The notes below the pieces were generated by a model, which saw only the letters and a list, made by a program, of their open reading frames with translations, made no database searches and had not been told where the DNA came from. 64,000 bases of DNA, from NCBI RefSeq assembly GCF_003544915.1, contig NZ_CP032097.1:744001-808000 (forward strand), read 5' to 3'. A program made the translations under genes and the position numbers. This document shows positions 51,033 to 53,537 of the stretch, piece by piece; position 1 is the first letter of the stretch; the number at the start of each line of letters is the position of its first letter. The DNA is from Arcobacter ellisii (GTDB lineage: Bacteria > Campylobacterota > Campylobacteria > Campylobacterales > Arcobacteraceae).

Positions 51033-51553
51033 TTGGTATAATAATTGTTGCAATTTTATTATTGATAGTTTTGATATATCTATTAATGGATGACAAAAAA
51101 AATATAGAAAAACCAAATATAAAAGTAAACACTCCTTCTTTAAAAATTATAAAATTAAATGAAATGAGATTTCCAAAAAATATAGAAAGTATGAATATAA
51201 ATGCTTTATCACAAGCTTGTAGAGTGATATTAGATTCGTATAGAGCTTTAGATTATGCAAATAAACTTCCAAGTGCAATGGATAAAATAGAGTGGCATAC
51301 TTGGCAAGTCTCTTTGCTTTTATATTTTTTGAAAACAAAAAATAGATTATCAATTTATAATAGTGATAGATTTTTCCATATAACTATTTTAGAATTAAAT
51401 GAAGAACATAGAAACCGTGATATACAAAGAATTTTAAATAAATATTGGAATAATGCAAATATAGAAAAAGATAGAGATACTTTAAGTAGAGATGTTATTT
51501 GGACAGCAAGAGATGTATCTATTATTTTATATGAAATTTTGAAAGAGAAATAA
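51017..51553 (+). CDS. Membrane-anchored protein, unknown function
   Basis: 178 residues. One N-terminal helix ([19 protein letters not shown], about 6-24) anchors it, and the rest is a cytoplasmic helical domain with repeated Arg/Trp ([30 protein letters not shown]). It overlaps the LpxH-like gene by 16 bases. uvrB begins 10 bases after its stop. No family recognised. Confidence 0.65.
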
Positions 51554-51563
51554 GGAGTTTATC

Positions 51564-53537
51564 ATCGCAAAGTTTAAAGTAGTAAGTGATTATGAACCAA
51601 GTGGAGACCAACCAAAAGCAATAAAGGCTTTAAGTGAAAGTATAGAAGCTGGAAATCAATACAACACGCTTTTAGGAGTAACTGGAAGTGGTAAAACTTA
51701 TACAATAGCTAAAGTTATTGAAAAAGTTCAAAAACCAACTCTTATTATGACTCACAATAAAACTTTAGCAGCTCAGTTATACTCAGAGTTTCGACAGTTC
51801 TTTCCAAATAATCATGTTGAATATTTTATCTCTTATTATGATTATTATCAACCTGAAGCTTATATTCCTAGAAGTGATTTATTTATTGAAAAAGACTCAT
51901 CAATCAATGAAGAGTTAGAAAGATTAAGACTTAGTGCAACAGCTTCACTTTTATCTTTTGATGATGTTATTGTAATAGCTTCTGTTTCAGCTAATTATGG
52001 TTTAGGAAATCCTGCTGAATATAAAGCTATGGTTCAAAGAGTTGAAGTTGGGTTTGAATATTCACAAAAAGAGTTTTTATTAAAACTTGTAGAAATGGGA
52101 TATAAAAGAAACGATAAATTTTTTGATAGGGCAGATTTTAGAGTAAATGGTGATGTTATAGATATTTTTCCTGCTTACTTTGAAGATGAGTTTATTCGGG
52201 TTGAGTTTTTTGGTGATGAGGTTGAATCAATTTCAAAACATGAGTATATTACAAATAATAGAGTAAAAGATTTACAAGAAGTAATTATCTATTCTGTTAA
52301 TCCTTTCGTTGTTTCAAATGATAAACTTGCAAATGCTGTAAAAGAGATTGAAGAAGAGTTAGATGAAAGACTTGAATATTTTCAAAATGAAAATAAGTTA
52401 GTTGAATATCAAAGACTAAAACAAAGAGTTGAGTTTGATTTGGAGATGATTGAAGGAACTGGAATGTGCAAAGGGATTGAAAACTATGCACGACATTTAA
52501 CAGGTCAAAAGCCAGGGGAAACTCCTTATTCTTTACTTGATTATTTTGAACAAATGGGAAAAGATTTTTTACTTGTAGTTGATGAATCTCATGTTTCACT
52601 TTCTCAATTTAGAGGAATGCATGCAGCTGATAGAAGTAGAAAAGAAGTTTTAGTTGAGTATGGATTTAGACTTCCTTCTGCACTTGATAACAGACCTCTA
52701 AAATTTGATGAATTTATAAGAAAAGCACCACATTATGTATTTGTAAGTGCAACTCCAAATGAACTTGAACTTGAAATGAGTTCAGTTGTAGCAGAACAAA
52801 TAATTCGACCAACGGGACTTCTTGACCCTGTTATTGAAATAATAGATAGTGAATATCAAGTTGAAAGATTACACGATGAAATCAAAAAAACGATTGCAAA
52901 AGATGAAAGAGTTTTAGTTACAGTTTTAACTAAAAAAATGGCAGAAGAACTTGCAAGTTATTACGCAGATTTAGGAATAAAAGTAAAATATATGCATAGT
53001 GAAATTGATGCAATCGAAAGAAATCAAATAATAAGAGAACTTAGACTTGGAACTTTTGATGTTTTAATTGGAATTAACCTTTTAAGAGAAGGTTTGGATA
53101 TTCCTGAAACTTCACTTGTAGCAATTCTTGATGCAGATAAAGAAGGATTTTTAAGAAGTAAAACTTCACTTATTCAAACAATCGGAAGAGCTGCTAGAAA
53201 TGAAAATGGAAGAGTTATTTTATTTGCCAAAAAAATCACAGCTTCAATGCAATTTGCCATAGATGAAACAAATAGAAGAAGAAAAATCCAAGAAGAACAC
53301 AATATCAAAAACAATATAACTCCAAAATCTACAAAAAGAAAATTAGATGAAAATCTAAAACTTGAAGAGTATGATGATGTAGCATGGAAAAAACAAAAAC
53401 TAGAAAAAATGCCAGCAGCTGAGCGAAAAAAAATCTTAATTGAGCTAAATAATAAAATGAAAAAAGCAGCACAAGATTTAAACTTTGAAGAGGCTATTAG
53501 ATTAAGAGATGAGATAGCTAAAATAAAAGAGATATAA
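51564..53537 (+). CDS. uvrB: Excinuclease ABC subunit B, with probable AUC start codon
   Basis: 657 residues. The expected UvrB N-terminus ([19 protein letters not shown], residues 2-20) is encoded but no ATG, GTG or TTG precedes it in frame; the first ATG is at 51747, after Walker A (GVTGSGKT, 38-45). An in-frame stop lies at 51540. ATC at 51564 occupies the usual Met position and follows TAAGGAG by 6 bases, so I propose it as the start. Other marks: [12 protein letters not shown] (beta-hairpin), [23 protein letters not shown] and a C-terminal UvrC-binding coiled coil. Damage recognition in nucleotide excision repair. Confidence 0.9.

Follow-up and report, generated by a model that had tools for sequence, protein, structure and literature searches.

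The uvrB gene of Arcobacter ellisii, encoding excinuclease ABC subunit B, can with high confidence be predicted to start with an AUC codon at position 51564 of the window (the whole 64,000-nucleotide stretch of DNA that was analysed; Table 1), and comparison with related genomes indicates that AUC or AUA almost certainly starts uvrB in many relatives as well. A sequence-only reading of the window had proposed this start because the reading frame is open from 51543 and has no ATG, GTG or TTG until 51747, past Walker A, and because a Shine-Dalgarno (SD) sequence lies 6 bases ahead of the ATC at 51564; these coordinates proved correct, the SD being AAGGAG at a spacer of 6 nt. The open frame runs from 51543 to 53537 (664 codons plus a stop codon at 53535-53537), with no canonical start codon (ATG, GTG or TTG) from the preceding in-frame stop up to where conserved coding begins, and with residue 62, counted from 51564, as the first canonical codon. 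On the same numbering, GVTGSGKT, which we take to be the Walker A motif of UvrB, occupies residues 38-45 (51675-51698) and is retained near the N-terminus only if translation begins at 51564 or nearby, while it is lost from a product started at ATG 51747. The product scores 1013 bits against NF003673 (cut-off 743) and 987 bits against TIGR00631 (cut-off 750.1). The codon directly 5' of the aligned uvrB start varies among the relatives (ATC, ATT, AAA, GTC, CCC and others), so that 51564, and not the tandem codon at 51561, is the conserved ATC.

The upstream gene, which shares 11 nt with the open frame of uvrB in A. ellisii, matches no Pfam or NCBIfam profile at E 0.01. Its product has a hydrophobic N-terminus, and C-terminal ends similar to its own (such as VIWTAREVSIIL) were seen by eye to precede uvrB in several genera.

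Table 1. Features of the uvrB region and of other genes with apparent non-canonical starts (positions are those of the window unless a genome and contig are given)
Feature	Position	Strand	Remarks
uvrB, excinuclease ABC subunit B	51564..53537	+	657 codons plus stop; NCBIfam scores, Pfam UvrB domains
Predicted AUC start codon, uvrB	51564..51566	+	Aligned family codon and 6-nt spacer to SD
Shine-Dalgarno AAGGAG	51552..51557	+	From the sequence; overlaps stop codon TAA (51551-51553) of upstream gene
Tandem ATC directly 5' of uvrB start	51561..51563	+	Spacer only 3 nt; not conserved
First canonical ATG in uvrB frame	51747..51749	+	3' of Walker A; rejected as start
Upstream gene, 178 aa	51017..51553	+	Ends 10 nt 5' of AUC
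Zinc-ribbon-like small protein	G000:C1:742198-742395	-	L319; 1.6 kb left of window; putative ATA start behind AAAGGAG
Membrane protein, 263 codons	G000:C1:962911-963699	+	L309; AAAGGATGA ATT ATA; weak DUF3147 match below cut-off
606-codon ORF	G000:C1:808534-810351	-	Just right of window; first 70 codons (292 in G006) hold no canonical start
TatD-family gene	G014:C1:561776-562588 and G026 counterpart		TIGR00010 over cut-off; apparent AUU behind AAGGA
rnpA	G014:C1:494843-495187 and G026 counterpart		TIGR00188 over cut-off; apparent AUU behind AAGGA

The gene was compared with uvrB from 31 genomes of the genus, from the family Arcobacteraceae (97 of 104 genomes matched) and from 397 genomes of the class. 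The aligned start codon was readable in 95 family genomes from 19 genera, the gene being either not found or cut off at its start in the other nine, and was ATC in 39 (A. ellisii included), ATA in seven, ATT in none, ATG in 33, TTG in 13 and GTG in two, with a single genome (L193) that has AAA at this position and a canonical codon three codons upstream. The relatives are therefore far from uniform in having ATG here, and the AUC start first suggested for A. ellisii alone recurs, together with AUA, in nine of the 19 genera (g1, g3, g5, g6, g9, g12, g13, g73 and g74). These 46 ATC/ATA genomes are not phylogenetically independent; on the UvrB family tree the start codon needs 16-17 changes, and ATC is found in several separate clades. 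Isoleucine codons in the 46 genes are mostly ATT (60%), followed by ATA (28%) and ATC (12%), and because ATT, the commonest of the three, occurs in 0 of 46 at the aligned position, the position behaves as a start codon rather than as an ordinary isoleucine codon.

In 22 of the 46 AUC/AUA genomes only a single in-frame codon separates the upstream stop from the start, so that the start is hemmed in by this stop on one side and the conserved N-terminus on the other. The stretch that usually precedes the first canonical codon, codons 2-47, shows protein-level constraint in this group, with 15224 synonymous versus 8699 nonsynonymous pairwise codon differences among 45 sequences and a mean third-base identity of 0.57. 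The N-terminal 46 codons have a mean identity of 81% compared to 95% for the next 46, and the same dip is seen in the relatives with canonical starts (71% versus 91%). An in-frame canonical codon upstream occurs once among the 46, 15 codons away (L180), and canonical codons stand at codon offset 22 in L007 and L179 and at 27 in L189; in L034 a contig end truncates uvrB. In one draft genome a second near-full-length UvrB match (G452:C27:16201-18105; 54% identical) was noted, which may be a paralogue or contamination. Within the class search, the start was read in the family members and in 28 genes from eight other families of the order (f3, f4 and f7-f12, with f2, f5, f6 and f13 left out), and in all 28 a canonical codon lies no more than three codons from the aligned start, the sole aligned ATC among them (L214) being directly followed by TTG.

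The start codon is coupled to the kind of sequence that precedes it. An SD motif at a spacer of 5-8 nt is present in all 46 AUC/AUA genes (AAGGA or longer in 45, only AAGG in L165), and a -10 box just upstream was found in none of the 46, A. ellisii uvrB included. Among the 33 ATG relatives, 22 lack an SD and instead carry TATAAT, TACAAT or TAAAAT with its end 5-7 nt ahead of the ATG, a spacing that would place the start of transcription at or beside the A of the ATG. The remaining 11 comprise seven genes with neither an SD nor one of the counted -10 forms (one of which, L205, has the looser TAATAT), three from g1 with a four-base SD and one (L187) with a strong SD. The 15 TTG/GTG genes, too, each carry an SD motif, which is strong in 10, so an SD does not force AUC or AUA. 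Behind a strong SD, ATG is used by only one of 56 uvrB genes; for comparison, AAGGA is followed after 4-8 nt by a canonical codon in 99 of 329 long ORFs in 400 kb of A. ellisii, with the start picked mechanically, and this codon is ATG in 79 of the 99, with corresponding proportions of 68/89, 69/84 and 68/89 in three other genomes.

The association was also examined on the tree with 93 rows (L034, too short, and L193, in which the aligned codon is not a start, were left out) and with an SD rule looser than the main one, which counts five ATG genomes with an SD instead of four (L159 added). Eight independent pairs differ in SD on well-supported branches (10 on all branches), and non-AUG goes with the SD in seven or eight of the eight (mean 7.8) and with its absence in none (sign test, median p 0.008). 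When AUC/AUA instead of non-AUG is taken as the partner trait, 5-6 of the eight pairs agree (median p 0.031), the lower count resulting from SD forms that use UUG or GUG.

A -10 box of the form gnTAnaAT, followed after 5-9 nt by ATG, has been described as the rule for leaderless mRNAs in Epsilonproteobacteria, and the leaderless genes reported there for C. jejuni all have ATG (PMC3847290). A -10 box 5-9 nt before ATG without an SD is found in the 22 ATG relatives noted above and not in the other 11, and uvrB of A. ellisii, with an SD and no such -10 box, falls outside this class. The 22 relatives thus have the layout of leaderless genes, and their uvrB transcripts would presumably be leaderless. 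The same earlier description covers genes, some of them for DNA repair, that are leaderless in one species and have an SD in another; it differs from the present case in that the main text of the paper does not mention uvrB and that the starts it names are ATG, GTG and TTG (PMC3847290).

The arrangement as a whole is very probably explained by translation from AUC with a strong SD and the ordinary initiator tRNA, where the weakness of the start keeps UvrB scarce. AAGGAG, at its 6-nt spacer, would recruit the 30S subunit to the AUC, the ordinary initiator (anticodon CAU, carried as fMet-tRNA) would read AUC despite the third-base mismatch, and the weak AUC would counterbalance the strong SD and operon transcription to yield a low level of UvrB. 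In the ATG relatives, a promoter directly before the AUG would give a leaderless mRNA without an SD and so offer another route to modest UvrB. Comparison of the genomes establishes the open frame, the SD, the retention of AUC/AUA to the exclusion of AUU, the joint switching of SD and codon and an ordinary set of initiator tRNAs, and it lends good support to the reading that a weak codon after a strong SD would set a low level, in alternation with a leaderless AUG layout. Initiation at AUC with fMet, the low level of UvrB, the leaderless state of the relatives' mRNAs and selection for that level as the cause are what we infer from the comparison. A. ellisii has 59 tRNA genes (ARAGORN gave an equal number in the stretches supplied to it), of which two are initiator genes, both with the anticodon CAU and an ordinary anticodon arm. 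The 59 were examined for a special initiator tRNA, and none was found; sorted by what we take to be the initiator anticodon-arm motif, the five tRNA-Ile(GAU) genes lack it. As both initiators are CAU and there is no GAU initiator, fMet-tRNA would be the one to read AUC, with a third-base mismatch.

Another reading, possible but on the unlikely side, is that the AUC serves as a regulatory switch, such that initiation factor IF3 represses the AUC and a stress or growth state that alters IF3 raises UvrB, in place of SOS control. The phylum is not known to have a LexA-type SOS system. Such a switch would fit with the behavior of IF3 in vitro, where weak third-base pairs are disfavoured and excluded (PMC10158994; the pair of AUC with CAU lies outside the portion of that paper used here), with the repression by IF3 of the GTC start of sigR in Streptomyces (PMC5472188) and with the medium-dependent use of the AUA start of ccpN in Staphylococcus aureus, though the AUU start of cvfC1 in the same organism is reported to have no medium effect (PMC13009471). 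Against it, infC was located in 30 of the 31 genus genomes searched (loci L115-L144) and begins with UUG in all 30, so the AUU start that this gene has in E. coli is absent here.

Low UvrB through a weak start also has to be weighed against neutral tolerance, by which a weak start suffices once the SD is strong and a stop codon lies close upstream, so that AUG would have drifted to AUC or AUA with no benefit from low expression, a reading that is considered improbable. Many of the genes do have the context it calls for, as 36 of the 46 AUC/AUA genes have a same-strand ORF of 80 codons or more whose end lies no further than 24 nt from the start (in 43 it lies within -150 to +30), and starts of this sort recur in unrelated genes (see below). 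However, drift among isoleucine codons does not account for the complete lack of AUU, the commonest of them, at the uvrB start, nor for the retention of AUC in the face of the third-position divergence in codons 2-47. Drift should, by reasoning, also often revert to AUG, whereas AUG stands behind a strong SD only in the one gene of 56 and is kept in the -10-box form.

It is very unlikely that the true start is a canonical codon elsewhere, whether the ATG at 51747 or the start of the upstream gene, joined to uvrB by a frameshift or readthrough. The lack of any canonical codon near the conserved N-terminus and the 11-nt overlap of the two frames would favor such a start, but initiation at 51747 would remove Walker A and was rejected on that account, and the ORFs upstream of uvrB differ among the genomes (judged by eye from their ends) and in 22 of 46 the stop lies one codon from the start, which makes a conserved frameshift very unlikely and led to the rejection of frameshift and readthrough alike. 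Translational coupling is doubtful as a general requirement, given that 10 of the 46 AUC/AUA genomes (seven of g13 and three of g6) lack an ORF of 80 codons ending within 60 nt. A sequencing or assembly error at 51566 (C for G), for which the sequence-only reading had advised a check, is practically ruled out by ATC in 38 further genomes, each of a different species, and ATA in seven, and could hide only in the pair L186/L187. The two members of this pair (G447 and G446) have near-identical leaders with the same strong SD, ATC standing in L186 and ATG in L187, which could reflect either a true reversion or a discrepancy between assemblies.

Non-AUG starts as such are established, AUC and AUA being documented for few genes, namely those cited here. 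The infC gene, with AUU in E. coli and AUC in Streptomyces, shares with uvrB a low-efficiency AUH start (PMC5472188) but is a different gene in which that start serves autoregulation of IF3. Streptomyces sigR has, as uvrB does, a rare start on a stress-response gene, and its start lowers output; it differs in that the codon is GUC, that it sets a sigma/anti-sigma ratio and that its effect was shown experimentally, and alternation with a leaderless form is not mentioned in the portion of that report used here (PMC5472188). A conserved non-canonical start combined with a strong SD is also found in ccpN (AUA) and cvfC1 (AUU) of S. aureus, which are Firmicutes genes with an extended SD, established by ribosome profiling and reporters; their output is about 10% of that from AUG in poor medium and, for ccpN, up to 30% in rich medium (PMC13009471). 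In Listeria, six conserved genes have fixed non-canonical starts, among them rnhC, with an ATC start stated to be experimentally confirmed, and infC is ATT, but that survey covers one species, and alternation with a promoter-proximal AUG is not mentioned in the part of it used here (PMC13068326).

Among 61,358 reconstructed cases from 36 groups of related genomes, AUG changed to AUU once and to CUG twice (PMC5622118), and given such rarity, AUC or AUA on one core gene in about half a family is unusual. A report of an AUC or AUA start of uvrB was not found among the matches listed from the open-access literature, and those that join uvrB with leaderless starts concern Deinococcus, by title. The AUC/AUA start of uvrB, its breadth and its alternation with an apparently leaderless form look new, and the family's uvrB genes form a natural series for the trade-off of start codon, SD and promoter in setting the level of a protein.

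For other genes with starts of this kind, 400 kb of A. ellisii was scanned against 400 kb of G006 for genes in which 12 or more aligned codons precede every canonical start, change being counted as coding-like when there were at least three synonymous codon changes and these outnumbered the nonsynonymous ones. Of 323 gene pairs, 19 were flagged and five of these were coding-like, with uvrB at the top (19 synonymous versus seven nonsynonymous), its stretch ahead of the first canonical codon thus exceeding chance. The other four are the 263-codon membrane protein, the zinc-ribbon-like protein and the ORFs 603605 and 604034, the last two put aside by eye as probable antisense frames. In all 10 genus matches the membrane protein gene has ATA behind AAGGA at a 6-nt spacer, and a stop codon stands two codons ahead of this ATA; its first canonical codon is at offset 11-12 in L315 and L317 and not before 32 in the other eight. 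The zinc-ribbon-like protein, for which profile matches are below cut-off, has ATA in 10 and ATC in two of 12 close genus matches, a count that leaves out the distant L331 and L332; in one of the 12, L328, a canonical codon lies 12 codons further upstream.

The 606-codon ORF, with 15 synonymous versus 23 nonsynonymous changes, possibly starts with AUU or AUA, its start boundary being ambiguous. Comparisons of A. ellisii with G014 (128 pairs) and of G006 with G026 (111 pairs) yielded only this ORF and an ORF at 955476, in which nonsynonymous changes outnumber synonymous ones. A pair from another family (G311/G326) gave 199 gene pairs, of which 65 were flagged and none kept, though with a GC content of 57% versus 27% it is not a matched control. 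Between G014 and G026, a pair from the UUG clade, two of 233 gene pairs passed, the TatD-family gene and rnpA.

A set of Arcobacteraceae genes with AUC, AUA or AUU starts, uvrB included, might form an IF3-responsive translational regulon that takes in DNA repair and in which uvrB alternates with a leaderless AUG form, although this is quite unlikely. If true, its layout would be AAGGA, about 6 nt, AUH and often GCN, with a joint response to initiation fidelity. Gene callers restricted to ATG, GTG and TTG can mis-start or miss genes in Arcobacteraceae, and the part of the A. butzleri genome report used here describes annotation with a caller limited to these three codons (PMC2147049).
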